Shown here in pieces: positions 1 through 41,186 of a stretch of 43,367 nucleotides of DNA. The notes under the pieces were generated by a model. It saw nothing but the letters and a program-made list of their open reading frames with translations, made no database searches and was not told the origin of the DNA. The DNA is from a virus, in the IMG/VR virus record IMGVR_UViG_3300030099_007836, positions 1-43,367 of that record; one strand, 5' to 3'. Positions within the stretch are counted from its first letter, which is position 1. Every line of letters begins with the position of its first letter. The translations under genes were made by a program, and so were the position numbers.

Positions 1-419
1 CTACCTGTCTCTGCACATGCTTGCTGAACACCTAAGGTCTTACCATTACCAGACATACCTGTAATGAATACAGGATAGAATAGTTTTGATGAAATCACTT
101 TCTTGAGATCAGGAAACTGACCAAATCTTACAAATGTCTTGTCAATCTCTGGTATAAGATTTTGTGCATCTGTTTCTGTTTTAGCAATACCAGTTGAAAC
201 TGGTGCTACTGGTGCTACTGGTGCAGAGGGTTGTTGAAATGTTTGCTCAAGTTGTGCTTTTGCTTGCTTGACAGTCACATTCCAATGACCTCTCTTAGTC
301 TTGTAGCGGTTCAAAAACTTAGTGATAGTTTGATACCCTATTGGGTGTGTATCTAGTTTTTTACCATAAATCTCAACAATGTTGTTGATGTGAAAATCGG
401 GGTCGTAGGTAATTGGCAT
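1..419 (-). CDS. cobS: CobS-like AAA+ ATPase (5' part, cut by window edge)
   Basis: This is the N-terminal part (about 139 residues) of a MoxR/CobS-type AAA+ ATPase; the rest lies beyond position 1. Reading from ATG 419-417, the protein starts MPITYDPDFHINNIV, has a flexible Ala/Pro/Val-rich linker around residues 75-85, and reaches a Walker A motif, GMSGNGKT, near the window edge. In bacteria CobS works with the VWA protein CobT as the cobaltochelatase chaperone. In marine T4-like phages a cobS-like gene commonly sits beside a large VWA gene, as here. The role in phage is unsettled: cobalamin synthesis, or remodelling of a different VWA-bound target. It lies 96 bases downstream of the VWA gene on the same strand, so the two probably share a transcript. 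I see no clear Shine-Dalgarno before the ATG. Confident in the AAA+ family, less so in the exact name. Confidence 0.8.
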   Translation of the reverse strand, partial: MPITYDPDFHINNIVEIYGKKLDTHPIGYQTITKFLNRYKTKRGHWNVTVKQAKAQLEQTFQQPSAPVAPVAPVSTGIAKTETDAQNLIPEIDKTFVRFGQFPDLKKVISSKLFYPVFITGMSGNGKTLGVQQACAETG

Positions 420-3276: not shown

Positions 3277-4185
3277 ATGTTTGTGTTATGGGGATTCAAG
3301 CATTTTGGCAAATCATTCTTTTTAGCGTCATTTAGATATAATCGTAAGACAGTTGTTCAAATGCAAATAGGGGGTGAGTATAGCACCCATAAGTGGGAAT
3401 ACCATGGTGTTGAACAACATTATAAAACATTTTACAGAGAAAATGATGACAATATTATCAAGTGCCGTACTAAGATACATGAACTTACGAGTGACGAATT
3501 ATTATTATACAATCTCGATAAAGGTATTATTTCCCCAGATGGTGTAAATGATGATTACTTAGGATATGGAAAATTCCAATTCAATAAACCTAAAGTCGAC
3601 ACGAGTGTAGATAAAAAAACAGGTAAAAAATTATATCCAATATATTCAGATCATGGTAGTAAATGGTCAGATCATTTCTTTGACGATCTATGCACATGTG
3701 ATTTATTTGTACCTAGACCACATAACTCAATGTGGTATGAACCATTTATTGAGCATTTTAGGAAATGTAATAATATAGTGACATATAAAGAAGATGTACT
3801 TGACATGTGTATATCACGATTGAATTTATTTGAAACAAAAGAAACTAACAAATATATGAACACGAATGTAAAGGATATAGAAGACGCATATAATACGAAT
3901 AAATCACTGGTATTCACTCACTTAGATTTCTTTATCAAAAAGAATAGGGATGTTGAGGTCAAACTAAGAGAAAATAATATACCATATGAATATCTTGAAC
4001 TTGACTCATTTGATGCTAAAAGAATGGTCGATACAGAATTGCCAAGAAGATATAATGATGTTTTATTACCGATACCAAAAGACACCTATAGATTTAGACT
4101 AATAACACGAATGGCGAAGGAATATATAAAATCACGAGGGTTGACAGACCTTAGACTCTCAGGTAGAGTAAATGACAAGATCTAA
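3277..4185 (+). CDS. Cassette paralogue 1, P-loop/sulfotransferase-like (function unknown)
   Basis: First and most divergent of six related genes. The open frame extends upstream to 3106, but ATG 3277 is chosen because the product then begins MFVLWGFKHFGKSFFL, matching the N termini of the other five (MKYxYFSxxxxGK). This copy alone has an exact Walker A pattern, GFKHFGKS (residues 6-13). It shares NNIVTYKEDVLDM and NNIPYEYLELDSFD with the other copies, and is 302 residues long against 262-297 for the rest. A short basic loop near the N terminus plus a mid-protein strand followed by a KED(I/V) motif resembles the two phosphosulfate-binding elements of sulfotransferases (R/K-S-G-x-x near the N terminus; strand-R-x-P-x-D later). 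This is inference, and glycosyl or phospho-transfer cannot be excluded. The KdsB-like gene starts 6 bases after it. Confidence 0.6.
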   Translation: MFVLWGFKHFGKSFFLASFRYNRKTVVQMQIGGEYSTHKWEYHGVEQHYKTFYRENDDNIIKCRTKIHELTSDELLLYNLDKGIISPDGVNDDYLGYGKFQFNKPKVDTSVDKKTGKKLYPIYSDHGSKWSDHFFDDLCTCDLFVPRPHNSMWYEPFIEHFRKCNNIVTYKEDVLDMCISRLNLFETKETNKYMNTNVKDIEDAYNTNKSLVFTHLDFFIKKNRDVEVKLRENNIPYEYLELDSFDAKRMVDTELPRRYNDVLLPIPKDTYRFRLITRMAKEYIKSRGLTDLRLSGRVNDKI

Positions 4186-4190
4186 AAATT

Positions 4191-4904
4191 ATGTACAAAG
4201 ACAAAACTATTACATGCGTGATACCATCACGAATGTCCTCTTCACGATTTCCAAATAAACCTTTAGCAAAAATACTTGGAAGAGAATTAGTGCTTAGAGT
4301 TGCGGACTGTGCAAAAAAATGTAAATACTTTGATAGAATTATTGTTGCTACTGAAGATCAAGTTATAAAGGAATTGGTTGAGAGTGAAGGATATGAAGCA
4401 TGGATTACTGGAAAACATTACACATGCAACCATAGAGTATCTGAGGTAGCATCAGACCTTGAGTGTGATTATGTTTTCAATTTACAGGGTGATGAACCAC
4501 TCTCTGACCCAAATCATTTAGATTATATTATAGAGTACGGTATTGATAATGAATTAGATATGGTACAACCAATCAGGAAAAATTTGGAAGGTGATAACGA
4601 AAATCCTGACGTGGTGCAAGTTATTGTCAATAATGGTAAAGTATTATATCTCATGAGAATACCCGAAGTAATTACTGAAAATGTATATCCACAATTAGGA
4701 TATTATTTTTATAAACGAGAGGTCATTGATGATTATAAAAATCTTGATATGTCATTTGTAAAATATTGGAAGGGATTAGATACCATAGCATTTTGTGGTA
4801 AATATGATGTTGTGCCTTTACTTCTTCCTAATTGTGGAAGACAGCAGGGTGTAGATAGACCAGAGCATATCAAAATAATAGAAAAAGAGTTGAGTGAAAT
4901 ATAG
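4191..4904 (+). CDS. kdsB: KdsB-like CMP-ulosonate (3-deoxy-manno-octulosonate) cytidylyltransferase
   Basis: 237 residues, close to the usual 245-255 of KdsB. It has the N-terminal nucleotide-binding signature IPSRMSSSRFPNKPLA (residues 11-26), IIVATEDQVI (50-59), and NLQGDEPL (97-104), whose Asp is the metal-binding residue of this GT-A-like fold. These enzymes join CTP to an ulosonic acid (usually Kdo) to give the CMP-sugar used for lipopolysaccharide or capsule. The loop that reads GTDR in typical KdsB is CNHR here (79-82), so the sugar may not be standard Kdo. The gene sits between cassette paralogues 1 and 2. Its last 11 bases, GTGAAATATAG, are also the start of the next gene. No Kdo synthase (KdsA) is present in the window, so the acceptor sugar would have to come from the host or from elsewhere in the genome. 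Confidence 0.85.
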   Translation: MYKDKTITCVIPSRMSSSRFPNKPLAKILGRELVLRVADCAKKCKYFDRIIVATEDQVIKELVESEGYEAWITGKHYTCNHRVSEVASDLECDYVFNLQGDEPLSDPNHLDYIIEYGIDNELDMVQPIRKNLEGDNENPDVVQVIVNNGKVLYLMRIPEVITENVYPQLGYYFYKREVIDDYKNLDMSFVKYWKGLDTIAFCGKYDVVPLLLPNCGRQQGVDRPEHIKIIEKELSEI

Positions 4905-5779
4905 TTATTTTAGTGCTGAGAGAGCAGGGAAATGTCATTATCATTTCACAGCACTAATGAATGGTAAAAGTATTGCAAGACCCAAAGAGAATTGTGGTAT
5001 AGCATGTACAATTTACATGCCCACTAATAATACTATTCAATGGTATTGGATTGATAAAGACAATAATACCAGATGGTTGAGAGAATATAGAAATTACGAG
5101 AGTATTGATTGGTTAGGAACTATAAACGATCTCAAATTACGACCAAAAGATAATAAAAAAAGTAAACATTGGTTAGCACGAGGATTTATACACGATTATC
5201 CCCAAGAAATAGACGACACATGTGTATGGTTGTCAAATAGGTATCACGAATTTTTCAATAAATTTTTTGAGTGTGATCATTTGTTGCACCCAGAAATGTT
5301 ACTGGGATATTGGGGATTTACTAAAGCAGATAGAGAAGGTATGAGTCTAAGTGATTGTTTATTAGCAGATGAGAGATATATGAAGGTAGATTTGGATTAT
5401 TCTATTAGTATGATGAAAAAACGAAAGAATATTATAGTATATAAAGATGACATTAGAAAACTTGCGAGATCATGGTTTCTTGGTGGTGGTCAACTAATAG
5501 ATATTAGTGACGAGTCATATTATAGTAATATATCTCTCAGAATAAATGAAGCAAGAAAAATTCCTAGATCCATGCAGGTAGCGTTAGATCGTTTTGATAT
5601 ACCATACGAAGTATGGAGTTTAGATAAGGGAGACTATGGTGTATTTGGATTTGATAAAAATTTACCAAGATATGAAACTGAGGGATGTGATTGCACCATC
5701 AAACCTCGTCACCATCATAAAGTAGAAGGATGGATTGATAGATATGTGAGTGAATATAGTGAAATATAGTTACTTTAGT
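4893..5779 (+). repeat. Pair of direct repeats at cassette gene junctions
   Basis: The 22 bases at 4893-4914 and 5758-5779 differ at one position. Each copy contains GTGAAATATAG, which is both the end and stop codon of the upstream gene and the GTG start of the downstream gene. The first copy ends the KdsB-like gene and the second ends paralogue 2, although those two upstream genes are unrelated. The repeat is therefore a footprint of insertion or duplication at the 5' end of a family member. Confidence 0.7.
4894..5769 (+). CDS. Cassette paralogue 2, P-loop/sulfotransferase-like (function unknown)
   Basis: Starts with GTG at 4894 inside the 3' end of the KdsB-like gene; this start gives MKYSYFSAERAGKC, matching the N termini of the sister genes. 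291 residues. Shared family blocks in order: YFSxxxxGK (residues 5-13), WYWIDKDNN, HPEMLLGYWGF, MKKRKNIIVYKDDIRKLA, FDIPYEVWSLDKGDYG, then NLPRYE. The loop is degenerate for Walker A (SAERAGKC: Ser replaces the first Gly). There is no signal peptide or membrane segment, so the product is probably cytosolic. It overlaps both neighbours by 11 bases, implying translational coupling. Function is not recognised; sulfotransferase-like folding is my best inference. Confidence 0.6.
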   Translation: MKYSYFSAERAGKCHYHFTALMNGKSIARPKENCGIACTIYMPTNNTIQWYWIDKDNNTRWLREYRNYESIDWLGTINDLKLRPKDNKKSKHWLARGFIHDYPQEIDDTCVWLSNRYHEFFNKFFECDHLLHPEMLLGYWGFTKADREGMSLSDCLLADERYMKVDLDYSISMMKKRKNIIVYKDDIRKLARSWFLGGGQLIDISDESYYSNISLRINEARKIPRSMQVALDRFDIPYEVWSLDKGDYGVFGFDKNLPRYETEGCDCTIKPRHHHKVEGWIDRYVSEYSEI

Positions 5780-6652
5780 CCTAGTAAGGCAGGCAAGTAC
5801 CTTATTAGAGAGATGTTCCGTTATAATAACAAAACTCACTGCCTTTTTTGTTGTGGTCATCCACCAATCTATGCTGTTATGAGTGTTCCAGCGAACAAAA
5901 AAATATATTATGACTGGTATTGGGAAGATGATACCACTGGTGATTTAGTTCATAATAAATTTACTCAAACAAAGGATATTTTATTAGACCCCATGTATGA
6001 TGAGACATGGTATCCTGTATGCACAAATGGTCGTTATTCTATAAAAGAATTATTAAAAGTAAGAAATCAAGAACTTACAGGTATCAAAGCAAGTTCTCGC
6101 TGCACGGGTGATTTCTATAAATGTTTCAAGCATGCTTTTGAGACAGATATAATAGTAAATCCTCTTGTTATGTTAGGATACGGTGGTGTTCTTGGTACTA
6201 ATAAATTAGGAAAACTATTGAGACATCATCAACCTAATCTTGGAAACATTCCAATAGATTATGTTGTTGATGAATTATGTAAAAGGAAAAATATAGTCAC
6301 TCACAAGGAAGATATAAGAGAGTTGGCAAGAAATCTTTTTATAGGTAATGGTCATTTACCGTATAAAGACTCAAATGTTCTAATAACAGACACCGAAGAA
6401 AAATACATCCAGCAGGTAACAAAACTAATCAATTCACATAGACAATTTGAGAAAGATATTATAAGTTGTCTTGATTATTATAATATACCGTACGATATAT
6501 TCAATTTAGATAAAGATGACTACGCCCAACGTTTCAATTTGGATCGGACTTTTACAAAACTGCAAGATACCATGCTATCACGTTATGATTTTATAGAACC
6601 ATGTGACATTATTGAAGGTTGGATAGATAATTATATGAAGGAGAATCCATGA
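5759..6652 (+). CDS. Cassette paralogue 3, P-loop/sulfotransferase-like (function unknown)
   Basis: The frame can start at GTG 5750, but GTG 5759 is preferred because it gives MKYSYFSPSKAGKYLI, aligned with paralogue 2, and reproduces the same 11-base GTGAAATATAG stop/start overlap as at the previous junction. About 297 residues. Family blocks: YFSPSKAGK, an unusual Cys/His-rich stretch HCLFCCGHPP soon after it (about residues 27-36), WYWEDDTTGD, NPLVMLGYGG, CKRKNIVTHKEDIRELA, YNIPYDIFNLDKDDYA. The CxxCCGH-like stretch is not obvious in the other copies and might bind a metal, or may simply be lineage-specific. The gene ends with the ATGA overlap that starts paralogue 4. Function unknown. Confidence 0.6.
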   Translation: MKYSYFSPSKAGKYLIREMFRYNNKTHCLFCCGHPPIYAVMSVPANKKIYYDWYWEDDTTGDLVHNKFTQTKDILLDPMYDETWYPVCTNGRYSIKELLKVRNQELTGIKASSRCTGDFYKCFKHAFETDIIVNPLVMLGYGGVLGTNKLGKLLRHHQPNLGNIPIDYVVDELCKRKNIVTHKEDIRELARNLFIGNGHLPYKDSNVLITDTEEKYIQQVTKLINSHRQFEKDIISCLDYYNIPYDIFNLDKDDYAQRFNLDRTFTKLQDTMLSRYDFIEPCDIIEGWIDNYMKENP

Positions 6653-7437
6653 AATATACGTATTTCTCAACCATTAGATCAGGAAAATATCTAATGAGAA
6701 ATTTATTTTGGTTGAATAAAAAAAGCACATGTGCGTTAGCAAGATCTAAAGCGTTATGGGCATCATTGACAGAACCCATGGGTAAAAACTATAAGTGGGA
6801 ATGGTATTGGATTGATAAGAAAAACAATATACAGACATGTCATCACACTTTAGATGTTAGTAATAGAATATTATCTGCAAGATATTATGAGAAGTGGTTT
6901 CCTACCAAAAATCATTTAGGTTATAATTGCCTACCAATAGAGAATTGGGGTGTACATGAAAACTTTTGGTCTTGTATTGATACTATATTACGAAGAGATA
7001 TAATAACAAATCCTTTTACATTACTAGGTTATTTTGGCAGAGATCCACATAGAATGATAAACGAGATGAAGAGCAGCAGAACTACATTGACACCACATCC
7101 AGATATAATACAACAACTAAGAAAACGTAAGAATATAATAGCATACAAGGAAGATATAGAACATTTAGCGTATAATATTTTTTCAGTGCTGGCAGCAGAA
7201 AAAACAGCGATCAAAAGAATAAATCAAATAAGACAATTTCAAGAATATATGCCTAAATTTTTAGATAAACATAAAATCCCATATGAAATGTTCTCATTAG
7301 ATAGTGGTGACTACGCCAAAACTTTTGAACTGGAAAAAACATTACCAAGAGATTGCACTCAATCAATATGGCATGGAGATTCAAACAATATTGACACAAA
7401 AAAAGCAGTAAGTAATTATATGAGAGAGAACCCATGA
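6649..7437 (+). CDS. Cassette paralogue 4, P-loop/sulfotransferase-like (function unknown)
   Basis: 262 residues, starting at the ATG of an ATGA overlap with paralogue 3. The N terminus, YFSTIRSGKYLMRNLFWLN, is the copy most like a sulfotransferase phosphosulfate loop (compare the general pattern RSGTTLLRNLL). Later blocks are WEWYWIDKKNN, DIITNPFTLLGYFGR, LRKRKNIIAYKEDIEHLA (compare the sulfotransferase strand ending in R-x-P-x-D), IPYEMFSLDSGDYAKTF and KTLPRD. This copy and the next two form a close subgroup with long stretches of near-identical DNA, so they come from recent duplication. It is coupled to the next gene by another ATGA. The substrate cannot be read from sequence. Confidence 0.62.
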   Translation: MKYTYFSTIRSGKYLMRNLFWLNKKSTCALARSKALWASLTEPMGKNYKWEWYWIDKKNNIQTCHHTLDVSNRILSARYYEKWFPTKNHLGYNCLPIENWGVHENFWSCIDTILRRDIITNPFTLLGYFGRDPHRMINEMKSSRTTLTPHPDIIQQLRKRKNIIAYKEDIEHLAYNIFSVLAAEKTAIKRINQIRQFQEYMPKFLDKHKIPYEMFSLDSGDYAKTFELEKTLPRDCTQSIWHGDSNNIDTKKAVSNYMRENP

Positions 7438-8765
7438 AGTACACATATTATTCTTCTATAAAATCAGGCAAACGTATGATGAGAGATTTATTTTGTCTGA
7501 ATAACAAAAGTGCTGTATGTATGTCACCAAGTAAACCCATATGGGCATCATGCTTAGAACCTTTTGGTAATATTTTGAAGTGGGAATGGTATTATTGTAA
7601 TGAGAGTAATATATTACAAAAACACACTCATTACATAGATAAAAATAAAATATTAGAGGAAAAATATTGTGAGATGTGGTTTCCAGTAAAGAATAGTCAG
7701 GGAAAGAAGGTCATAGACTATAAAAAATGGAAAACACATGAAAATTTTTGGGGTTGTATAGATGATATATTACGAAGAGATATTATAACTAATCCTTTTT
7801 CTCTATTTGGTTATGCAGGTAGAGACAGTCATAAATTTATGCTGGAGATGAGTAATGACACCCCACCACTAAAACCACACCCAGATATAATACAACAACT
7901 AAGAAAACGTAAGAGTATAGTAGCATATAAAGAAAACATAGAGCATTTAGCGTATAATGTGTTTTCATGTAATGGGAGACCTGAATCAGTAGAACAGACA
8001 ATACACATTATCAATGAGATAAGAAAATTTCAAAAATACATACCAAAATTTTTAGAAAAATATGATATACCCTACGAAATGTTTTCTCTTGATAGTGGTG
8101 ATTATGCTAAAACTTTTGACCTAGATAAAGTTATACCCAGAAATTCAACTGATAATTTTTGGAAGAATAATTTGGGTCAAGATGTGAAAAAACTTGTCAG
8201 TGAATACATGAGAAATTATCCATGAAATTTACCTATTTTTCAACCATCAAATCAGGTAAACACTTGATGAGAAGTTTATTCTGGTTGAACAATAAAAGCA
8301 CATGTATCATGTCTCAAAGTAAACCAATATGGGCAGCATTATCAAAACCAATTGGTAAATTATATAAGTTAGAGTGGTATTGGTGCGATAAGGATAATAA
8401 ATTACAAACGCATAATTACTTTATAGATGTGACAGATAAACTTTTATCTTCACATTATACTGAGTATTGGTATCCTATAAAAGATCATAGGGGATATAAT
8501 TATTTGCCATATAATGAGTGGGTGACACATGAGAATTTTTGGGAGTGTATTGATAGTATTATGGAGAGAGATATAATAACAAATCCCTTTCAATTGTTAG
8601 GTTACGTAGGTAAAGATATTCATAAGATGCTGGAGCAGGTGAAGAACAATTCACCGACTATAAAACCACATCCCAATATAATACAACAACTACGAAAACG
8701 TAAGTCTATCGTAGCATATAAAGAAGATATAGAGCATTTGGCATATAATATTTTTTCGCTGGTGG
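7092..8765 (+). repeat. Near-identical DNA blocks in paralogues 4, 5 and 6
   Basis: A block of about 90 bases starting near 7092, 7875 and 8663 is highly similar in all three genes. It encodes PxIIQQLRKRKxIxAYKExIEHLAYNxFS. The spacing of about 785 bases equals one gene length, so these are tandem whole-gene duplications, not an internal repeat. Confidence 0.7.
7434..8225 (+). CDS. Cassette paralogue 5, P-loop/sulfotransferase-like (function unknown)
   Basis: 263 residues, starting at the ATG of an ATGA overlap. The N terminus is MKYTYYSSIKSGKRMMRDLF. It shares WEWYYCNES, DIITNPFSLFGYAGR, QLRKRKSIVAYKENIEHLA and IPYEMFSLDSGDYAKTF with copies 4 and 6. In this copy the acidic KED motif reads KEN (Asp to Asn), the only clear substitution in that block among the six. 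The segment just after it (FSCNGRPESVEQ) differs from the sisters, as does the C terminus, while the core stays constant. The pattern suggests a shared reaction with varied specificity. Function not recognised. Confidence 0.6.
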   Translation: MKYTYYSSIKSGKRMMRDLFCLNNKSAVCMSPSKPIWASCLEPFGNILKWEWYYCNESNILQKHTHYIDKNKILEEKYCEMWFPVKNSQGKKVIDYKKWKTHENFWGCIDDILRRDIITNPFSLFGYAGRDSHKFMLEMSNDTPPLKPHPDIIQQLRKRKSIVAYKENIEHLAYNVFSCNGRPESVEQTIHIINEIRKFQKYIPKFLEKYDIPYEMFSLDSGDYAKTFDLDKVIPRNSTDNFWKNNLGQDVKKLVSEYMRNYP

Positions 8766-9019
8766 GTGGATTTTCCGATCCAATAAAAACAATAAATCAA
8801 GTAAGAGAATTTCAAGATTACATGCCTATCTTCTTAGATAAACTTGAAATACCGTATGAAATATTTTCACTAGATAGTGGTGACTACGCTCAAACTTTTG
8901 AACTAAATAAAACTCTACCAAGACATAGCACCCAAACTCTTTGGGATTATGCATTTACAAATGATCGAGGTATTGATGTGAAAAAACAAGTTAGTAATTA
9001 CATGAAAAATTACGCATAG
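8222..9019 (+). CDS. Cassette paralogue 6, P-loop/sulfotransferase-like (function unknown)
   Basis: 265 residues, last of the tandem series, starting at an ATGA overlap with copy 5. It begins MKFTYFSTIKSGKHLMRSLF and carries LEWYWCDKDN, DIITNPFQLLGYVGK, QLRKRKSIVAYKEDIEHLA, IPYEIFSLDSGDYAQTF and KTLPRH. The KED acidic motif is intact. The next gene begins 32 bases downstream, the first real gap in the run; the gap contains ATACTATTATAAG, which might hold a weak -10 for the sugar genes that follow. Same family and caveats as the sister genes: sulfotransferase-like by motif layout, unproven. Confidence 0.6.
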   Translation: MKFTYFSTIKSGKHLMRSLFWLNNKSTCIMSQSKPIWAALSKPIGKLYKLEWYWCDKDNKLQTHNYFIDVTDKLLSSHYTEYWYPIKDHRGYNYLPYNEWVTHENFWECIDSIMERDIITNPFQLLGYVGKDIHKMLEQVKNNSPTIKPHPNIIQQLRKRKSIVAYKEDIEHLAYNIFSLVGGFSDPIKTINQVREFQDYMPIFLDKLEIPYEIFSLDSGDYAQTFELNKTLPRHSTQTLWDYAFTNDRGIDVKKQVSNYMKNYA

Positions 9020-9051
9020 TGTGTTAGAATACTATTATAAGAGAATTATCA

Positions 9052-9507
9052 ATGCTAGAAGTAGATCTTAGACATTTCCCATCAAAACTTCACAAAGCAA
9101 AAACTGTTGCTTTGCTAGGTAATGGAGGAAATCTTGCTGTTGCTCAACATATGGCATCAGACATTTTTAGACATACTGGGAAATTTTGTTTTGCTCCTGA
9201 CTCTGTAAATACAACTGCTTTAGCAGATAAAAATGATTGGAAAGTACCATGGATGGAGTACGCACAGTTTGCCGACCTTGTTATTGGAATAACTTGTAGA
9301 AATCACGCAGGTGTAGCAGATGCATTGATGACTGTAAAAGATAAATGCGATACTCTTCTCATTTGTCCTGTACAACATGAAGCACTTGACACACTTATTA
9401 TCCCTGCACGAAGTTATCACGAGTTTGAGTGTAACTCATTATGGACTATCTACATGATGATGGAACATATTGGTGTAGAATTACCTGATTTACCACACAT
9501 AAAATGA
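9052..9507 (+). CDS. gmhA: GmhA-like SIS-domain sugar-phosphate isomerase
   Basis: 151 residues, shorter than classical GmhA (about 190). VALLGNGGNLAVAQHMASDI (residues 19-38) matches the GNGGSAADAQHxAxEL substrate loop of sedoheptulose-7-phosphate isomerases, and TTALADKNDW (54-63) matches the following LTAxxND block. The usual second sugar-phosphate loop (STSGNS) reads TCRNHAG (81-87), so substrate or activity may differ. The family isomerises sedoheptulose-7-P to D-glycero-D-manno-heptose-7-P for LPS or S-layer glycans. It overlaps the HAD gene by 4 bases (ATGA), suggesting the two act in sequence. It is on the same strand as the KdsB/paralogue cassette and is plausibly part of the same glycan pathway. 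Confidence 0.75.
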   Translation: MLEVDLRHFPSKLHKAKTVALLGNGGNLAVAQHMASDIFRHTGKFCFAPDSVNTTALADKNDWKVPWMEYAQFADLVIGITCRNHAGVADALMTVKDKCDTLLICPVQHEALDTLIIPARSYHEFECNSLWTIYMMMEHIGVELPDLPHIK

Positions 9508-9893
9508 ATCCTTTAGTTGAAACATATGGTGACAAAACTGATTATGTCACTAATATATTCTGTATTGATATTGATGGCACTTTGACAGAACCACATAAAG
9601 GTACACCTTGGACTGCTGTGCCAAAATATGACCGTATTGCCAAAGTCAATCAATTATATGACGAGGGTGCGACAATATATCTTATGACTGCAAGAGGTTT
9701 TATCAAATCTCAGGAACATGATGGAACTATTCACGAACAACAGGGATATGCAGACGAACATGCAAGAGAGAGAACTGAACAGCAATTACAGAAATGGGGT
9801 GTCAAGTATCATGCATTATATTTTGGTAAACCTAGAGCAGTGACATATGTGGATGATCGTGCAATGAGTGACCACGAGTTTTTTCAAGATTAG
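9504..9893 (+). CDS. HAD-superfamily phosphatase, likely sugar phosphate
   Basis: 129 residues, compact and without a large cap domain. HAD motif I is DIDGT (22-26) with both aspartates, motif II is the Thr of YLMTARG (about 55-61), and the C-terminal acidic motif is YVDDRA, preceded by the Lys in FGKPRA. Related small HAD proteins occur in capsule and LPS operons, where they remove phosphates from sugar intermediates such as heptose bisphosphate. The ATGA overlap with the SIS isomerase supports a joint pathway. The last 62 bases overlap, in the opposite direction, the end of the gene at 9832-10812. Family assignment is firm; substrate is inferred from context. Confidence 0.75.
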   Translation: MNPLVETYGDKTDYVTNIFCIDIDGTLTEPHKGTPWTAVPKYDRIAKVNQLYDEGATIYLMTARGFIKSQEHDGTIHEQQGYADEHARERTEQQLQKWGVKYHALYFGKPRAVTYVDDRAMSDHEFFQD

Positions 9894-10812
9894 ATAACCA
9901 GTCGTACGATCTCTGATACTCTGGATTGTAGGTAAATTTTTGATGTGGTTCTAAAAATCCTTGAGTCATCATGTCATCATGCAATTCCTCTGGAGATTTG
10001 AGAGCATCAGTTCCTAGCATCAAAGTAGTAAGTTTTTTTCTTACACAAATGTCAATACTATTCCAATCACGAGTCCATTCAAAATATATTTTTTGATCTT
10101 CAGTCAACCAATTATACCCCCACTTCAACCAATGGATCACGATATTATTTTCTCTCTCCATCTCTTCCATTGTTTTAGTACGATATTGTTCTAACTTATC
10201 ATAAACGATCACCTTTTTATCTAAAAATTCAGCATAATATACATCGGTGCCAGGCCATGGTATGTAGATATACTCATGTCTCAAGAATATTTGTGATAAC
10301 CTCTCTTGTCTTACTATAGGATCTGCTAATTGAATAAATTTACTACCTTTTGGTAAGATAAGTTTATCCCAGTGCTTCCATATATCACATGTTCTCCATG
10401 GCAGCAGGAAAGTTGTGGGACTTGGAGCATTATCAATAAGATCTTGCACCCTCTTATAATCATTCTCTCTTATGGTACATTGATCATCTCTTGGTAAGAA
10501 GAACAATGACCCTTCTGGTTTGAAATCCTGTTTGCTGGCGACACGCCCCAACTCCCACAAAAATGGTGCTGTACCATAATACGCCCTTGTGCTACCAAAT
10601 TTTGCTGAATTTATTTTCTCTGCATGTCTTTTTGACCATGCATAAACCTTATTACTGTTGAAACACTCTCTTTTGGTGTACATATGATCGTAACGACCTA
10701 TTGCCTCACGACATACACCTGGCAAAATACCAAATAAAAAAGAGGTATCGAGTGATAAACCCAGATACCTCGCCATAGTATGATGCCACTTATCCGACCT
10801 GTCTGCGTACAC
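9832..10812 (-). CDS. Possible glycosyltransferase (GT-B-like C-terminal half), hypothetical
   Basis: 326 residues from GTG 10812-10810. The G of this codon is also the last base of the upstream stop TAG, and GGAG lies about 7 bases before it, which favours this start over the internal ATG 12 codons later. The section around residues 130-225 reads strand - PSPTTFLLPWRT - LILPKGSKFIQLAD - EYIYIPWPGTDVYYAEFLDK - KVIVYD. That is the layout of the nucleotide-sugar-binding half of GT-B or capsule-type transferases, where a G-x-x-x-x-E-A motif precedes KPVI. No exact family is recognised. Located between the sugar cassette and the fibre genes, it could glycosylate a fibre or a surface polymer. It ends by overlapping the HAD gene convergently by 62 bases. 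Confidence 0.5.
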   Translation of the reverse strand: MYADRSDKWHHTMARYLGLSLDTSFLFGILPGVCREAIGRYDHMYTKRECFNSNKVYAWSKRHAEKINSAKFGSTRAYYGTAPFLWELGRVASKQDFKPEGSLFFLPRDDQCTIRENDYKRVQDLIDNAPSPTTFLLPWRTCDIWKHWDKLILPKGSKFIQLADPIVRQERLSQIFLRHEYIYIPWPGTDVYYAEFLDKKVIVYDKLEQYRTKTMEEMERENNIVIHWLKWGYNWLTEDQKIYFEWTRDWNSIDICVRKKLTTLMLGTDALKSPEELHDDMMTQGFLEPHQKFTYNPEYQRSYDWLSNLEKTRGHSLHDHPHMSLL

Positions 10813-20997: not shown

Positions 20998-23900
20998 AAC
21001 TGACACGCATGATATAGGCGATTGCATAATATGGAGGAAGGTTTTTACCAGTAACACTTTCCGAACCTGCAGGTGCTGAAGCAGTCAATGATAGACTTCC
21101 ACTCTGACCAATCTGGTCACCAGATGTAGAACCAGGTGTGGAGTTATTCGCTGCAAAGTCCTGAGTACCACTGCTATCTAAAATGTAACCACCTGCTGCG
21201 TCAGCAAGAACAGCACCACTTGTTTGAGTAGAATGTCTCACTGGGTGACCGTGACTACCACCCGTAGCAGTGTGAGTGTGTGTTGGTACGATAGAGTCTG
21301 CACTACCACCAGTGCTATCATCAGCGTACGCAGAACCACGACCAACGACAAATCTATCAACCAGGTTTGGTGCCCCTGCTGCTTGTGCTGCTGCTGAGTT
21401 ATTACATAAAACCCAATTGGTTGGTACGTTACCGTCTGAACCAGACCACATTATAATACCACCGATAGGAACAACTCCATTTCCAACAAAATCACCAGCA
21501 GTTACAGTTCCTGTGATGTTAGCGTCATCAGTTGAGGTAAGTTGCTCTGCTGTAACCGTTCCCGATGCAGTGACACTTGTTGCGGTTACACTGCTTGAAG
21601 CAATAAGGTTTGTGCTATTTACATTTCCACCAGATGTGATATTATTACATGTAATATCAGTCGTGTCAATTGATCCTGAGGTTGATATACCAGTTACGTT
21701 TAGATTTCGACTTATGATAGCATCGAATCCCACATTGATATTATTGGTGACTGATAATGTATTTGATGTCAGTGTCGCTCCAGCAAATGTGAGAGCTGAA
21801 CTATCTTGCAATTCACCACTTGTACCTATGGTAACAACACGTCCTGAAGTAAGATCATCCACCTTCAAACTTGTAATGCTTACATTACCAGTGACACTCA
21901 TTACCTCACCATTATCGGCAAAGGTTTGACCAACCGCAACTCTGTCGAATACATGGTGCTCACTACCATTCTCTACTGATACAGAACCAAAACGTTGCCA
22001 CTTCTCTGTTCCTGTCTCATTTGTTTGAACCCAACCGACATATCCCCCTCTGTTTACACTGGTTGCAAACAAAATATTATCACCAGTTTGTGATGATGGA
22101 GGTTCTGTCTCTTGAACACCAACAAATACCTGTTTACCTATGGCACCAGTCCGATTTCCTCTTAGTTTGAGGTCAATAACATCAGTATTTGAATTACTGT
22201 AGAAGTTCTGATTGACAGTGAGGTTGTCAAATGATGCTACAGTTGGAAGTTGTGCTGTTGGAGCTGACACTGAGGTAGTATCAAATTCATCAATAGTTGA
22301 TACCTCCTCACCAGTAAGAGCATCAATTTTCTTTCGCCCAATAAAGAATTCACCCTTGTCATTCATGGCGGTGTATACCACTAATCCACCACGTGTTTGT
22401 TCTGACTGTGCTAATATTTGCTCATCATTATCAAGTACTCTGTCTTGAACCTGTGGCATCGCAGTTGAGTAGTTACCTGGTCCAAAACCAACATACTCAA
22501 ATGTGTGTCCTGACGCTCTTATCAACGAGTTTCTTCTAGTTTCTACTGGTATAACCTTGATTTTGACTGCTGCTACATTTTTAGCATGAGATGTAGCGTT
22601 TGTACCAAGAGCACCTCTTAGAATTTTTGTTCTATTTTTATCAGTGATCCTAACGATTTCATCTTCAATCTGTAAATAATCACCTCTTTTGAGCATACTT
22701 CTGTCTGCCAAGTTGATTGAAGCAGATGTAGCAGTGACAGCACTATTCAATTCAGTGGTAAATCCACCGTAAATTGGCATAGTTTGATTGAATCCTTTTG
22801 CACTGATACCAGATCCATGTGCTATAGCAGCAGCACCTGAGAATGCAGGTTGTGATGCTGTCCTTCCTATGTTGACAGTAAGTGAAGAACCATATCCAAT
22901 TCTATCAGTAATAGTATGTGTGCCATTATAAACTGAGTTTGCACCACTAATAATGATCTCATCTCCTCTACGTAGACCTATGTCAGAATGTAAAGTGACG
23001 GTTGCTATACCACTAATTCTATCGTGAAGTATATTAGTGACCTGTGTAGACACACCGACATGATATATAAATCCACCAGATTCAGAGAAATTATTGTCCG
23101 CAGAACCTCCAAACTTGATCTGTTTGGAATCGTCTATGTTTGTTATCTTATGAACACCATTATAGGAATCACTTCCAACTCCTATAACCTGTATTATATC
23201 ACCCTTCGCATTGTTAATTGTACCTACAGTAAGGGCACAGTCTGTGGTAGATCCTGATGGTCTAAAAGGCACACCTTGTATCTGAAGTATATCCCCAACC
23301 TCATATGCTGAACCATAATTGTTGATGTCTACACTGGTTATGGTACCGCTTGAACCCACAGTGACATCAACTGTAGCACCTCTACCACTTCCTCCTTTTA
23401 ATGGTATGTTGAAGTAAAACTCAGCATCACCACTACTTCTTCCATAACCCACACCACCAGTATTATTACTAAATCCTGTGATACCATTCAATCCATGATC
23501 CACTATAGTATCTAACGTTATTTGTCCAGTGTCATGACCACCACCTGTGACACCAATACCTAAGTTCGACTCTTGAATGAAACTGTGAACTAATTCCTTA
23601 GTGATACTATTTTTAGGATCATTTGTGATAACCTGTCCGATCTTTTCTCTCAAGGCATGAGATACTGCTGCTTCAGGATCAAAGTCTATATTATCTACAT
23701 CTGTTTTTGGTCTAAGATTATTGATATTCTGAGCAAAGAAGTTTACAGTAGTAGAGAAGGGACTTACGTTAGGTTGTGATATGTAACCTAAAACTGTTAA
23801 ATCATATATTCCGTCCTGTACATCTTTCTTGAACTCTTGTACCACCTCATTATTGAATACTTGATATGTCTTATTGAATTCTCTTTTTGTAAAAAACGGT

Positions 23901-26662
23901 GCAAAAGTTCTACCTGAACCAACAACAGACTGGTCATGTCTTGTATATGGAACATTAGCAGTAATAGTGCTGATACCACCAGGATTGGTGTTGATACCTA
24001 TACTGAATATGGTGTCACCACTCACACCCGTGACTTCAAACAACCCATTGAATCCAGTATTATCTACACCGTTCTCATTATTGCTACTTCTGACTCTACT
24101 CACCTCAACCAAATTACCAACACTCAGTCTATGTGGACTTTGTGATGTTATGATACCAGAGTTACTACTTGAATCCCATGTGGCATCTATAATTGCATTA
24201 TTGGTTCTTAGGTTTGAGACTGATGTAAGGTCGGTGTTATCATTTCTATAGAAAGTGTCATCAATGAGCGTCGCTGATTCTTGTAGTGAGAAACCATTTG
24301 TAGGTGCTGCTGCAGTAGTAGAGTCATCAGGCACTACGAATCTCACACGGTATATCTTCTCTAAGTCTTTTCTGGTATCGGGTGTTCTTACTATAAATGA
24401 ATTATTTGTATCTACTGATACAACGCTTTGATTGGTAACAATCGCAGCACGTAATGAGTTTGCTGCACCAACATTTACATACCAACCGTTAGTTGTGTCA
24501 TATTGAATTGGATGACCTGGTTCACCAGGTTCCTTCCCTTCTACTGTAGATACAACTCTTATCTTACCACCTAGATTGTTTATACCAGTAAGATTACTAC
24601 CTGCGGTAGCATTGTTGAAAGTGGTTGCTATTTTTATCTGATCAGCCTGTAATCCAGATGTGATAGCAAAATAATCTCTGTCAGATACAATATTATCTGG
24701 TAAAGACCCTGAATCTGAATAGAATCTTATTTTCTCACCAGTATTGAATTTATGTACATCCTCAAGAGTTATCACATTACTGGTGATAGAATTGATACCA
24801 GAATTACTGCCTACAAATATCTCTTTCTTACCTGATGCCCATGTGTCAGTATCAGCAAGAGGTCCTGGCATAAGAATGTCAGCACCATATACTATATTTT
24901 GAATAGAGCAGAATAACTTATCTCCTATCTTATTACCTACAGTAAAACCACTTGCTGTCTTTACTGGAATAGTGTCCTTGACCTTGAAACCAGACAAATA
25001 CAGTTGAGTGTCAGTCGATACACCGATAGTTGACTGAACATCTAACGCTATCCAGTTGACATCCTCTGTTTTATTAAATGTCTTTTTAGGTGGCACAATA
25101 CCTGTGATATATGCCTTATCGTCCTTGATAAACGCTTGAGACTTGAATCCATCAGACTCAAGAGCAGTGTGTCCAAAGTTTGAGTTAGAGTTTGTAAGTG
25201 ATATATCACCACCAGACTCAGTAACAAACTGCTTCGCATAACCCACAGCAAAACAAGATACAATCTGTAGCACAGAGTCTCTTGTAACCTTGATGTGGAA
25301 GTTCTCATACTCTGGTTTATACAGTGCCAGACCATCAGTGTGTAGGGTGACTGATGTACCAAGAGTTGCTTGGTCTTGCCATGTACCTGAAGTTTTGTTA
25401 TATTTTACAAACGCATTGTCATCTTTCTGTAGTCCTATACCTGTGAACTGTGCACAGACCATAGATTTGAAACCAGTTGCCTTACTACCATCAGACAACA
25501 TACCACACATTCCGAACACTGAACGTAGTGAGCAGTTGAATACGTATGGTGAGGCAGATGTAACACTATCACTCTCTACGATTACGATTGGAGCAAGACC
25601 TGTCAGTGATGGTGTAGCAGTGGATGGTGGAGCGACAGGAACAGTGTAAGTAAATGATGTTGTACTTAGAACCTGTGCAACCACATGACTACCATCATAA
25701 TCATTGTTGTTTACGCCATTGATTATTATTGGTGTCTCTACATTGAGGTTATGTTCTGTCTTTGTGATAACTGTGACCACCGTGGTGGCAATAGCAGAGG
25801 ACGCATCTGTACCAGAGAATATGTCCTGTATCTCAAGGTCACCAAGTCTAGATATCGCACCAACGATACGAGATTCATCAACAGTTTTTTGGAAGTCAGA
25901 ATTTGCAGGGTAGTTAGGAAGTGCTCTACCACTATTTGTACCATAAGCAAGAGTCAACTTAGCATAATACATGTCTAAGTCAGTGTTACCCTTACCTTCT
26001 ACAACGTTGTTACCATCAGCAAATTCAAAGCAAGTTAGTTTATGGTGTGAATAGTTTGGAGCATATACATTACTGGTGTAATCTTTAAAAATTCTGTCAG
26101 CAGGGTCACCATCAAATAAACTGAAGTTGAAGAAGAAACAACCACCAGTCACTCTGAATATTGCTGTTCTCTCTATATTGTCATTGTCTGGTTGCGGTAT
26201 GAACTTTGGTCTTATCTTTGTCTTTCTAAGATCCATACCAATAATGGATGTACCTCTTGGTAATATAACTCCACCATGCACAGAGTTGAAATGATATAGT
26301 ACATTGTCTGGATCTTGTATATCAAACTTAGTTCCAATAGATAACTCACTAATTGACGCAGCAGTACCATTTACATCAGTAACATTACCACTATCATCAA
26401 TCACAAAACCTGGTCTATTATCAATATAGTGTGTGCCAGGTGACACCATTATTGTAGTTTTATCAAACCTATCGTTATCCTTACCTAACTGATATGAGAA
26501 TCTAGCAGACTCTATCAGTGCTCTCTGTATAGTTTTGAACGGACGAGTTCTGGAATTACCAGTGTTGCTAACGTCATCTGTTGCATCAAGTTCCTCAGGG
26601 TTGACGTAAATGACGTTACCCTGTACATTTTTTAGAAAATTTTCAAGTCTACTAAGTGGCAT
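20996..26662 (-). CDS. Giant collar-domain fibre/baseplate protein (1888 residues)
   Basis: The longest gene in the window. The N terminus (MPLSRLENFLKNVQGNVIYV, then RPFKTIQRALIESARFS and TIMVSPGTHYID) reads as a beta-helix start like that of pectin-lyase-fold proteins. The centre holds repeated small beta modules such as GDEIIISGANSVYNGTHTI. The C-terminal part from about residue 1730 is a phage tail collar domain: VPIGGIIMWSGSDGNVPTNW, NLVDRFVVGRG, THTHTATGGSHGHP, and a final LPPYYAIAYIMR. T4 gp12 and many short fibres end in this domain, with histidines coordinating metal in a trimer. The exact late promoter 26693-26700 precedes it. Likely a host-contacting adhesin anchored to the baseplate; gp10- or gp12-like equivalence is inferred. 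Confidence 0.8.
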   Translation of the reverse strand: MPLSRLENFLKNVQGNVIYVNPEELDATDDVSNTGNSRTRPFKTIQRALIESARFSYQLGKDNDRFDKTTIMVSPGTHYIDNRPGFVIDDSGNVTDVNGTAASISELSIGTKFDIQDPDNVLYHFNSVHGGVILPRGTSIIGMDLRKTKIRPKFIPQPDNDNIERTAIFRVTGGCFFFNFSLFDGDPADRIFKDYTSNVYAPNYSHHKLTCFEFADGNNVVEGKGNTDLDMYYAKLTLAYGTNSGRALPNYPANSDFQKTVDESRIVGAISRLGDLEIQDIFSGTDASSAIATTVVTVITKTEHNLNVETPIIINGVNNNDYDGSHVVAQVLSTTSFTYTVPVAPPSTATPSLTGLAPIVIVESDSVTSASPYVFNCSLRSVFGMCGMLSDGSKATGFKSMVCAQFTGIGLQKDDNAFVKYNKTSGTWQDQATLGTSVTLHTDGLALYKPEYENFHIKVTRDSVLQIVSCFAVGYAKQFVTESGGDISLTNSNSNFGHTALESDGFKSQAFIKDDKAYITGIVPPKKTFNKTEDVNWIALDVQSTIGVSTDTQLYLSGFKVKDTIPVKTASGFTVGNKIGDKLFCSIQNIVYGADILMPGPLADTDTWASGKKEIFVGSNSGINSITSNVITLEDVHKFNTGEKIRFYSDSGSLPDNIVSDRDYFAITSGLQADQIKIATTFNNATAGSNLTGINNLGGKIRVVSTVEGKEPGEPGHPIQYDTTNGWYVNVGAANSLRAAIVTNQSVVSVDTNNSFIVRTPDTRKDLEKIYRVRFVVPDDSTTAAAPTNGFSLQESATLIDDTFYRNDNTDLTSVSNLRTNNAIIDATWDSSSNSGIITSQSPHRLSVGNLVEVSRVRSSNNENGVDNTGFNGLFEVTGVSGDTIFSIGINTNPGGISTITANVPYTRHDQSVVGSGRTFAPFFTKREFNKTYQVFNNEVVQEFKKDVQDGIYDLTVLGYISQPNVSPFSTTVNFFAQNINNLRPKTDVDNIDFDPEAAVSHALREKIGQVITNDPKNSITKELVHSFIQESNLGIGVTGGGHDTGQITLDTIVDHGLNGITGFSNNTGGVGYGRSSGDAEFYFNIPLKGGSGRGATVDVTVGSSGTITSVDINNYGSAYEVGDILQIQGVPFRPSGSTTDCALTVGTINNAKGDIIQVIGVGSDSYNGVHKITNIDDSKQIKFGGSADNNFSESGGFIYHVGVSTQVTNILHDRISGIATVTLHSDIGLRRGDEIIISGANSVYNGTHTITDRIGYGSSLTVNIGRTASQPAFSGAAAIAHGSGISAKGFNQTMPIYGGFTTELNSAVTATSASINLADRSMLKRGDYLQIEDEIVRITDKNRTKILRGALGTNATSHAKNVAAVKIKVIPVETRRNSLIRASGHTFEYVGFGPGNYSTAMPQVQDRVLDNDEQILAQSEQTRGGLVVYTAMNDKGEFFIGRKKIDALTGEEVSTIDEFDTTSVSAPTAQLPTVASFDNLTVNQNFYSNSNTDVIDLKLRGNRTGAIGKQVFVGVQETEPPSSQTGDNILFATSVNRGGYVGWVQTNETGTEKWQRFGSVSVENGSEHHVFDRVAVGQTFADNGEVMSVTGNVSITSLKVDDLTSGRVVTIGTSGELQDSSALTFAGATLTSNTLSVTNNINVGFDAIISRNLNVTGISTSGSIDTTDITCNNITSGGNVNSTNLIASSSVTATSVTASGTVTAEQLTSTDDANITGTVTAGDFVGNGVVPIGGIIMWSGSDGNVPTNWVLCNNSAAAQAAGAPNLVDRFVVGRGSAYADDSTGGSADSIVPTHTHTATGGSHGHPVRHSTQTSGAVLADAAGGYILDSSGTQDFAANNSTPGSTSGDQIGQSGSLSLTASAPAGSESVTGKNLPPYYAIAYIMRVS

Positions 26663-26692
26663 TACCTACCTTCTGACACCATTCCTTCAACT

Positions 26693-26700
26693 TATTTATA
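26693..26700 (-). promoter_or_regulatory. T4-type late promoter TATAAATA
   Basis: Exact minus-strand TATAAATA, 31 bases upstream of the giant collar-domain gene (start 26662) and immediately after the end of the small membrane-protein gene. Confidence 0.8.
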
Positions 26701-26705
26701 CCCTA

Positions 26706-27044
26706 TCAGATTCGTGGTATTCTCTGAACTAATGGCACTATGTCGGATTCAACCTTTTCAACTATTTGATCTATGATGTTTATATCAATATCCATAAAAG
26801 GAGGGGTGATACCCAACAATCTTAATAATCCATCGACAAACAATGCAAGTGTGGTGAAACCAAGTATCATGCTTATGATAGTAGCGTCACGATTGTGTTT
26901 CGCCATAGACTCTTCATCTATACGTCTTGCTTCATCTACAGCATCCTTGATGAGTTTATCAACTTCATTCTTGGTATAGAATTGACCTACAACTGGAACG
27001 TCGTGAAACTTTATGTCAGACAATGGTAGTTTTACTTTAGACAT
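26706..27044 (-). CDS. Small protein with one transmembrane segment (112 residues)
   Basis: The frame extends to 27065, but ATG 27044 (product MSKVKLPLSDIKFHDVPV) is preferred: AAGGTGG lies 5 bases before it, and it gives a short overlap with the upstream gene's stop (27037-27039). A helix rich in Asp, Glu and Lys (residues about 25-55) precedes a hydrophobic segment, ATIISMILGFTTLALFVDGL, of about 20 residues, then an amphipathic C terminus. A membrane protein amid baseplate genes is unusual; it might be a morphogenesis or membrane-anchored factor. I do not recognise a family. Confidence 0.55.
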   Translation of the reverse strand: MSKVKLPLSDIKFHDVPVVGQFYTKNEVDKLIKDAVDEARRIDEESMAKHNRDATIISMILGFTTLALFVDGLLRLLGITPPFMDIDINIIDQIVEKVESDIVPLVQRIPRI

Positions 27045-27222
27045 AGACCACCTTGATTGTGTCATCGATCTCCTCTGCTACTTTAGCGACTTCAAGAACT
27101 CTCATAAACTGATCAACGTCATCACACTCTATTTTTTTAATATCTGCCTCAGAACCATAGATTCTGAACCACTTACCAGATAGGCAGATTTCTAAGCGGT
27201 CAACGTATTGATCGGTAAACAT
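27037..27222 (-). CDS. Small conserved phage protein (61 residues)
   Basis: The frame is open from 27339, but the internal ATG at 27222 is chosen because it removes a 74-base overlap with the upstream gene and gives MFTDQYVDRLEICLSGKW, a natural N terminus. The product is acidic in its middle (ADIKKIECDDVDQFMRVLEV). There is no known domain. It lies 43 bases downstream of the 85-residue gene and overlaps the membrane-protein gene by 8 bases. The start choice is moderately sure; function is unknown. Confidence 0.55.
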   Translation of the reverse strand: MFTDQYVDRLEICLSGKWFRIYGSEADIKKIECDDVDQFMRVLEVAKVAEEIDDTIKVVYV

Positions 27223-27265
27223 AGTATTTGAAGTTTTATTTAGTATAGCACACCGATACTCAAAG

Positions 27266-27523
27266 TCAAATATCAGACAGGGGTTTCTCTTGTACTGCAT
27301 AGACATTATAATATGCGTCAATAGGTCCACCTGCTGCATTTTTTATGATAATTTTACTACCATACTGAATTTCTGCAACATATAATTCTTGCCACACACC
27401 CTTTGGTGTCACATTTACTCTTATCGTCTCTGGTATAAGTTTACCCCAGTATTCTGGTAATTCTATAATTCCGTCAACTTTGACAACTCCATTAGTTGAG
27501 ACAGACCCATTAATTTTTGGCAT
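27266..27523 (-). CDS. Single-domain virion protein paralogous to the end of its neighbour (85 residues)
   Basis: The product (MPKINGSVSTNGVVKVDG...) contains IELPEYWGKLIPETIRVNVTP, then ELYVAEIQYGSKIIIKN and a final YYNVYAVQE. This matches the C-terminal region of the 275-residue protein just upstream (IELPDYWKSMV, SVQITPIG, DIYVKSFDNEKIVLES, CFYHVYGERND) in order and spacing. It is therefore a free copy of that domain, about 75 residues. The domain is common at the ends of phage tail or baseplate proteins. It could cap or complete the same assembly. No catalytic residue is apparent. Confidence 0.6.
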   Translation of the reverse strand: MPKINGSVSTNGVVKVDGIIELPEYWGKLIPETIRVNVTPKGVWQELYVAEIQYGSKIIIKNAAGGPIDAYYNVYAVQEKPLSDI

Positions 27524-27559
27524 TAGATTCTAACATACTATACTATCTAGCAATTTTTA

Positions 27560-28387
27560 TTATATAACAGTTTTGGTATTTTGACCAGTGTCATAATTAG
27601 GATCCTTAATATTTCTATCTTTATCAGAGGGATCAAGTTTGAGGTTGGGGTCAGGATAATCTTCCCATGTCTCACCTTCATACTCTACAATAAGTGGGTT
27701 TATATCATTTCTCTCACCATATACATGGTAAAAACAATCAATATCTGAATCAGATTCTAATACGATTTTTTCATTGTCAAATGACTTGACATAAATGTCT
27801 TCTTGTCTCCCGATAGGAGTGATCTGCACTGAAATGCTATCATTATACACCATGGACTTCCAGTAATCTGGTAATTCAATAGTGTCAGAGTCTTTCAATC
27901 TACCTCTATGATATATTGCTACCTCTGGACCTTCAACACATGCATATCTAAGTCTATATCCTTCTTTAGTAGGATGTTTTATATCAAAAGACTTACCTAA
28001 TGCATCAGCAGTTCCAAATCTAGAGGCGAGTCTACCTTTATTGCCTCCATCAATTCTACCTGTCACCAATAAATCACCTTGTATAATTACAGCATTTGGG
28101 TAATTATCTCCAAAAGGATCTCCTGCAATCTCAACATCACCCTCCACACTAAGAGCTAGACCTTTTACCGCAGGTTTAAAATTTGTAAAACCAAATTGAG
28201 AAGTTCCTATGTTCACATTACCAAAGGCAGTATCACTATGCTCACCAAGAAACACAGGTCCGACTGCTGCAAGTGTACCCTCAAATTCTTTGTCACCATC
28301 TAAAGTTTCTTTTGATTGATCTTGTTTTCTTGGAAACTCAGGTCCTATGTAAACCTTCCCTGTAGAAAGGTCTCTCATTTCTGCCAT
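27560..28387 (-). CDS. Virion structural protein, baseplate/fibre type (275 residues)
   Basis: Starts MAEMRDLSTGKVYIGPEFP. Residues about 75-115 form a short beta repeat (GLALSVEGDVEIAGD, NAVIIQGDLLVTGRI). Then KSFDIKHPTKEGYRLRYACV, EGPEVAIYHRGRL, IELPDYW and a C-terminal YHVYGERND block follow. The HPTKEGYRLRYxxxEGPE signature is widespread in marine phage tail structural proteins near gp5. The C-terminal 20 residues are Asp/Lys-rich and look disordered. The gene is 1 base from the upstream gene, inside the gp5 cluster. It belongs to the distal baseplate or fibre network; no finer call is possible from sequence. Confidence 0.65.
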   Translation of the reverse strand: MAEMRDLSTGKVYIGPEFPRKQDQSKETLDGDKEFEGTLAAVGPVFLGEHSDTAFGNVNIGTSQFGFTNFKPAVKGLALSVEGDVEIAGDPFGDNYPNAVIIQGDLLVTGRIDGGNKGRLASRFGTADALGKSFDIKHPTKEGYRLRYACVEGPEVAIYHRGRLKDSDTIELPDYWKSMVYNDSISVQITPIGRQEDIYVKSFDNEKIVLESDSDIDCFYHVYGERNDINPLIVEYEGETWEDYPDPNLKLDPSDKDRNIKDPNYDTGQNTKTVI

Positions 28388-40616: not shown

Positions 40617-41186
40617 CTACGTAGTTTCCACATTTTGTAGCGGAATTTTATTTCTTTTAATAAGCGTTTCATAAATTTGATTTGCAATTATCCGATGACC
40701 CTCTTTGGTGGGGTGTTTTGTCTTTCCCAGAGGTAGGTCAGGATTATTTAGTTGTAAATCATAAGAATATTTCGTATTTTTTGATACGGTAAGTAAAAGT
40801 AACTCAGTCTTATTTGCCTTGAAATGATCAATTATTGCTTGTCTAAATATGAATTCGTCTGAGTGTCCGTACTCTTCATCATAATAATTTTTATAGTAGT
40901 CTAAAAATTTTTTTCCTTCACCTCTACCAGGATTTACATGTTCCCATTGACCATCTATATAAAATTCTGTCCTATTTTTGAATGTCATACAGATAATTCC
41001 TAAATCATAATTGCTGACATCATGATCTAGTGTAGTTCTAACAATTCTCCTATTACTACAACCATGATCTGAAAGATCTGTATATTGTGCTTTTAGTTTT
41101 TTTGATAATTGCACGGGATATCTGTCTTCCCTATCATCTAGAGAATACCCCCAACACCAAGAATCACCATTATATAATATTTTCAT
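40617..41186 (-). CDS. SGNH-hydrolase-like protein 1 (most complete)
   Basis: 189 residues. Block I is YNGDSWCWG with the candidate nucleophile Ser9; block II-like SDHGCSNRRIV; a C-terminal HPTKEGHRIIA, where one His would complete the dyad. The Asp normally three residues before the catalytic His (DxxH) reads Lys here, so a complete Ser-Asp-His triad is not visible. The family hydrolyses esters, including O-acetyl groups on sugars, which is relevant to polysaccharide editing. It overlaps the upstream gene by 17 bases and is last in a three-gene run. Lack of a signal peptide points to a cytosolic or virion role. Confidence 0.65.
   Translation of the reverse strand: MKILYNGDSWCWGYSLDDREDRYPVQLSKKLKAQYTDLSDHGCSNRRIVRTTLDHDVSNYDLGIICMTFKNRTEFYIDGQWEHVNPGRGEGKKFLDYYKNYYDEEYGHSDEFIFRQAIIDHFKANKTELLLLTVSKNTKYSYDLQLNNPDLPLGKTKHPTKEGHRIIANQIYETLIKRNKIPLQNVETT

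Follow-up and report, generated by a model that had tools for sequence, protein, structure and literature searches.

A six-gene array of a putative sulfotransferase-like P-loop family beside a CMP-sugar module in cyanophages

Introduction

Why would a phage keep six paralogous genes in a row beside genes for activating a sugar, and what might their products do? The question is raised by a 43,367-nucleotide stretch of DNA from an uncultured ocean virus (IMG/VR record IMGVR_UViG_3300030099_007836, positions 1 to 43,367; hereafter the window), in which such an array, with an inserted KdsB-like gene and followed by SIS-domain and HAD phosphatase genes, occupies positions 3277-9893. A preliminary description made from the DNA alone had placed the six products in a divergent, possibly undescribed branch of the sulfotransferases. 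By our estimate, the chances are about even that they constitute a divergent sulfotransferase-like P-loop family modifying a displayed glycan built with a CMP-activated acidic sugar, each class of the family serving one position or acceptor. The direct basis is gene order, homology, the classes, purifying selection, the type of fold predicted, joint occurrence with the sugar module and a genuine sulfotransferase in the corresponding slot of a relative; from these we infer 3′-phosphoadenosine-5′-phosphosulfate (PAPS) as the donor, a glycan as the acceptor, one site per class and the site of display.

An ordered array of a previously unclassified family

The run comprises nine reading frames, all intact and on the + strand, in the order and at the positions first described:

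3277..4185, +: copy 1, class 1 (YWG/LWG...GK type), 302 amino acids (aa); orthologues 49-54% identical in contigs L002, L003 and L006
4191..4904, +: KdsB-like CMP-sugar synthetase, 237 aa
4894..5769, +: copy 2, class a, by homology and tree
5762..6652, +: copy 3, class b, by homology and tree; L001 orthologue 80% identical
6649..7437, +: copy 4, class c, local expansion, by homology and tree
7434..8225, +: copy 5, class c, local expansion, by homology and tree
8222..9019, +: copy 6, class c, by structure model and conservation
9052..9507, +: SIS-domain protein (GmhA/DiaA-like), 151 aa
9504..9893, +: HAD phosphatase (EcbF/BcbF-like), 129 aa

The six paralogues stand head to tail (3277-9019); the KdsB-like cytidylyltransferase gene separates copy 1 from copy 2, and the SIS and HAD genes lie downstream of copy 6, as the preliminary description had it. 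Consecutive frames are spaced by +5, -11, -8, -4, -4, -4, +32 and -4 bases, most junctions of the array overlapping by 4-11 bases; because the frames overlap or nearly abut, the nine-gene run looks like one translationally coupled operon. Copy 1 probably starts at the ATG at 3277, since its closest relatives begin at the same residue; its mechanically called open reading frame (ORF) opens at 3106.

Copies 2-6 are mutually homologous in pairwise BLASTP (E 9e-15 to 2e-125), copies 4-6 sharing 56-62% identity and copies 2 and 3 matching the others at 27-33%. Copy 1 is so divergent as to be undetectable pairwise (best E 0.13); a hidden Markov model (HMM) built without its class found it at 1.7e-9, with none of 1000 shuffles of copy 1 scoring, and by this profile it is assigned to the family. 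A maximum-likelihood tree of 45 family members resolves five well-supported classes, each with its own place along the locus, in an order nearly constant among contigs: class 1 precedes KdsB, a follows it immediately, b and c come next in turn, and d adjoins the SIS gene. The window has no class d and three class c genes, copies 4-6, which group with the L001 c copy (support 100/100) and which we read as a local expansion of that class. The dN/dS values are 0.13-0.39 between orthologues and 0.26-0.28 between the three c copies. With the conserved class order and the c expansion, these low values indicate an array that is old, under selection and ordered, with a recent gain in one class. The diversified set of acceptors that had been proposed agrees with the variable copy number at one site and with the five old classes, whose order is conserved.

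The family was seen only in IMG/VR contigs and, on its sequences, counts as previously unclassified: searches of Pfam, NCBIfam, PHROGs and PDB sequence profiles gave no usable match, the profile search of the PDB with the array family being empty; tblastn of INPHARED phages with three members of different branches found nothing, and exact patterns taken from class c had no match in GTDB genomes. Weak Pfam matches of single members to ADDT, SSXRD and KH_5 were dismissed as chance. Scans of IMG/VR recovered 12 array loci directly and more through the KdsB neighbor. True members occur in 18 of 38 contigs with the KdsB core, at 1-6 copies each, the low counts being possibly lower bounds as some of the 38 are fragments; copy number at this locus does vary among phages, a point the preliminary description had proposed to check. 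A nineteenth tallied match (G035:10057-10212) was rejected as an SGNH-like protein with a partial HMM match. Typically, a locus runs from class 1 through KdsB and any further copies to SIS and HAD, with a 326-aa partner gene next on the opposite strand; L003 has one copy after SIS, L033-L035 and L037 have two copies before KdsB, and L021 has another order.

Predicted fold and conserved residues

AlphaFold models of copy 6 (m9961e4343be3; mean predicted local distance difference test, pLDDT, 89.6; predicted template modeling score, pTM, 0.88) and copy 1 (m769351248dee; pLDDT 80.8, pTM 0.81), which are from different branches and about 20% identical, have the same topology: strand 1, loop and helix 1, an antiparallel insert, later strands, a long helix and C-terminal helices. 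In copy 6 the strands at 118, 161 and 212 follow an insert with strands at 37-68. Both models display a P-loop-type alpha/beta core, closest to proteins of the nucleotide-kinase/PAPS-sulfotransferase type, which is the kind of core on which the preliminary description had staked its reading. With VIA-align, Stf0 ranks second for copy 6 (Z 7.6, 165 residues aligned, 4.5 Å, model 1..265) and first for copy 1 (Z 7.5, 181 aligned, 4.8 Å, model 1..289); sulfotransferases make up 27 of the 50 rows for copy 1, most extending to the C-terminal part of the model. Solved sulfotransferases are the main group among the best matches aligning over nearly the whole chain, those of both models being Stf0 of Mycobacterium (PDB 1tex) and SULT/NDST-type enzymes. 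The array models appear to share with these the strand-loop-helix unit, a later strand with an invariant basic residue followed by a helix, and a C-terminal strand and helix, but differ in the antiparallel insert. Matches in BFVD include two annotated sulfotransferases, weakly. VIA-align warns that Z below 8 may come from a common arrangement; for that reason we take these matches to support the P-loop superfamily, with a lean to the sulfotransferase branch that falls short of proof.

Conservation was counted over the 45 members in copy 6 numbering. The candidate 5′-phosphosulfate loop (residues 7-14, STIKSGKH) has K/R10 in 25/45, a small residue 11 in 35/45, G12 in 43/45 and K13 in 32/45, so that [KR]-small-G is found in most of classes a-d. 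The candidate 3′-phosphate strand (residues 162-176, SIVAYKEDIEHLAYN) carries Y166 (39/45) and the invariant K167 (45/45) on the fourth parallel strand, with S/N176 nine residues later in 36/45. Also conserved are N23 (42/45) and a C-terminal block of L217 (43/45), D218 (43/45), Y222 (42/45) and F226 (42/45). In the models, the candidate loop and the K167 strand appear to fall where sulfotransferases have the corresponding two elements. Copies 4-6 do have the family motif blocks that had been described, but across the 45 members few residues are kept. The proposed layout of two phosphosulfate-binding elements would fit in position, though not in loop sequence.

Genomic context of the proposed sulfate transfer

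Related phages place recognizable sulfotransferases in the same neighborhood. In MH319720 (L110:5907-7118), which is Marine virus AG-345-D19 and came from an extracellular sort-gate plate (PMC6122165), the slot directly upstream of KdsB, held elsewhere by class 1, is occupied by a SATTP-family gene. Contig G004 (L139:5171-11001, ~22170-28000) has a further array-family member at a second site, with an HpcH/HpaI aldolase, SGNH-like genes and three SATTP genes. The SATTP genes are called sulfotransferases because an alignment of four of them matches the L111 protein (HHalign probability 98.7 over 259 columns), which is Sulfotransfer_3-like (Pfam 3.6e-5, just below the curated cut-off). These phage enzymes (PF13469-like/SATTP; L110, L111, L139) of the same cyanophage group have a clear GWSATTP or MKSGTTS loop and an FRDPxRRLYS strand; the array family has neither. 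The enzyme in the class 1 slot and those near the G004 copy support the transfer of sulfate or a similar group by the array products. Other contents of the slot are an epimerase, a DegT aminotransferase and a carbamoyltransferase in L039, and an aminotransferase, an oxidoreductase and, by inspection, an amidinotransferase-like gene in L035. Two adjacent sulfotransferase-like genes in contig G006 (L112:1183-2689; IPGSGWAK loop, LRDT/FRDK strand; weak Sulfotransfer_3 matches) are probable tandem duplicates.

A number of results weigh against assigning the array family to the sulfotransferases. A Pfam scan of 35 members matched no sulfotransferase family. Foldseek against the PDB gave no significant match for either model; the structure check that the preliminary description had proposed on copies 4-6 yielded a P-loop core and near-full-length sulfotransferase matches in VIA-align for copy 6, and for copy 1 as well. 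VIA-align only re-ranks Foldseek's list; all its sulfotransferase matches have Z below 8, under the level the tool itself trusts, and P-loop kinases come within 1 Z of them. The loop [KR]-[STAG]-G-[TS]-[TS] of sulfotransferases is not found, T/S following the Gly in only 2/45 and Lys in 32/45; the class-1 branch mostly has D/N/H in place of the loop K/R, and the Ser expected about 8 residues after the basic residue of the 3′ strand is shifted by one, to +9. A search of 20 contigs and of the record that contains the window, with a good control, found no adenosine 5′-phosphosulfate (APS) kinase, so PAPS would have to be host-supplied. HHalign of the array family against NodH-type, Sulfotransfer_3-like (L111, L112) and SATTP profiles gave no signal; since the control of NodH against L111 failed too, this silence has little power and does not count as evidence against the sulfotransferase reading. 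The NodH query served solely to retrieve real plasmid sequences. A PF09037 scan of the contigs was uninformative, since its control stayed silent. Strict membership fails because the Thr/Ser after the loop Gly is absent, and since the loop-motif and sequence-family tests both fail, we do not file the family among the sulfotransferases, though it most likely works like them; of the divergent branch first proposed, the lack of any known family stands, and sulfotransferase membership is unproven.

The sugar module and the host

The KdsB-like protein has the CTP_transf_3 domain (PF02348, 1.1e-26) and is most similar to CMP-Kdo synthetases (CMP-3-deoxy-D-manno-octulosonic acid; PDB structures, 2e-27); its substrate is unsure because NCBIfam cut-offs are not reached. 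The HAD protein has an invariant DIDG (DxDG motif) and matches HAD profiles (PHROG 'phosphoheptose isomerase' 8e-23, NCBIfam EcbF-BcbF 1e-5, PDB 9iqw 'capsule biosynthesis protein' 1.5e-15); it is present in all of L001-L006 except L002. The SIS protein is weak alone (Pfam 0.03), and its profile matches DiaA and phosphoheptose isomerases (5e-4 to 1e-2); many relatives have the two, SIS and HAD, joined in a single gene. The module was thus correctly recognized in kind as one of sugar activation. Like the CMP-Kdo pathway (KdsB, KdsD/GmhA-type SIS, KdsC/EcbF-type HAD), it combines a KdsB-like enzyme with SIS and HAD proteins; unlike it, it has no KdsA in the operon, and its SIS protein is short and weakly similar. 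A further gene accompanies this core in nearly all contigs:

9832..10812, -: 326-aa partner of the KdsB-SIS-HAD core

Profile searches of Pfam and the PDB gave it no match; by inspection it is GT-B-like, and it is likely the module's transferase. The core with its partner is widespread also without the array, about half of the KdsB-core contigs having no array-family member.

The window's own record carries psbA (photosystem II D1; L141:11534-12616, -; 8e-87), and psbA recurs in six further records of the group, MH319720 among them, by which we identify these phages as cyanophages. The rest of the window is T4-like, with a peptidase gene (39-41% to cyanophage peptidases) on one side of the operon and tail-fibre genes on the other. 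The lipopolysaccharide (LPS) of the marine Synechococcus strains examined has no Kdo or heptose (PMC4515613), and of the lipid A genes the cyanobacteria surveyed possess no more than the first four (PMC3087551); a CMP-Kdo-type module in phages of such hosts points to a glycan foreign to the host. The own record also has a run of glycosyltransferases (L141:17737-19420 and L142:481-1158; GT25-like, galactosyltransferase-like, GT2), which makes the whole genome rich in glycan genes, and a carbamoyltransferase split into two abutting ORFs for its N- and C-terminal domains (L141:5003-6456, -).

Proposed function and alternatives

In the proposed pathway, the KdsB-like, SIS and HAD proteins would supply an acidic sugar activated with CMP, either Kdo or a similar ulosonic acid, and a partner such as the conserved 326-aa protein would transfer it into a glycan. 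The array enzymes would then modify this glycan, each class at a different position or on a different acceptor; sulfation from host PAPS is the likeliest modification. The product would probably be displayed on the virion or on the surface of the infected cell; the virion is weakly favored because the operon abuts tail-fibre genes.

An unlikely but serious competitor has the same fold move another group onto the glycan, phosphate or another nucleotide-activated group, which would make the family kinase-like or a new type of transferase. With Z 5.5-7.8, nucleotide, shikimate and adenylate kinases score level with the sulfotransferases, and the loop GK is kept in 32/45 members; the Walker A motif GxxxxGK[ST] is incomplete, however, its first Gly not being general and GK being followed mostly by Y/F/D/L, with Ser in 4/45, which makes an ordinary kinase less likely, and most kinase rows stop short of the C-terminal part, near residue 230 in copy 6 and 253 in copy 1. 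That the array products are instead glycosyltransferases, each adding one residue from the CMP-sugar of the KdsB-like enzyme, would suit their sharing its operon, copy 1 directly preceding KdsB, and a multi-linkage glycan served by several copies. We consider this improbable, since no GT-A or GT-B fold is among the structure matches listed, and the 326-aa partner, which unlike the array persists in nearly all the core contigs, is the better candidate transferase. More improbable still are non-catalytic proteins with a degenerate P-loop fold, diversified for recognition (e.g., glycan or protein binding on virions): loop residues do differ between classes and no catalytic base is evident, but K167, N23, G12 and LD217-218 hardly vary even between highly divergent classes, as in active sites, and the operon is shared with biosynthetic enzymes.

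Going further on the sulfotransferase-like reading, we tentatively suggest, while thinking it somewhat doubtful, that this ordered five-class array of a new family confined to uncultured cyanophages, with its varying copy number, is a modular tailoring code for a phage-built CMP-Kdo-type glycan absent from the host's known LPS. Marine cyanophages would then carry a swappable cassette that makes and chemically patterns an acidic sugar missing from known marine Synechococcus LPS. What sulfotransferases do in phages has been described as unclear (PMC10580990); the locus combines a core module, a slot with exchangeable contents and a graded number of copies, and offers concrete enzymes for asking whether virions are decorated or host surfaces remodeled.

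Other neighboring genes

Five short SGNH/GDSL-like proteins (starts NGDS, GDKH, FDGxS) are encoded close together at window positions 40617-42433 (-) and L141:190-1568 (-); such genes also lie beside sulfotransferases in L111 and L139 and adjoin the array in L009, L011, L012 and L046. Radical-SAM or radical-SAM-looking proteins are found near the KdsB module in array-less contigs (L023:5910-7975, -; L039:1270-2307, -; L057:2800-3807, -), the Pfam scan covering the two in L023.

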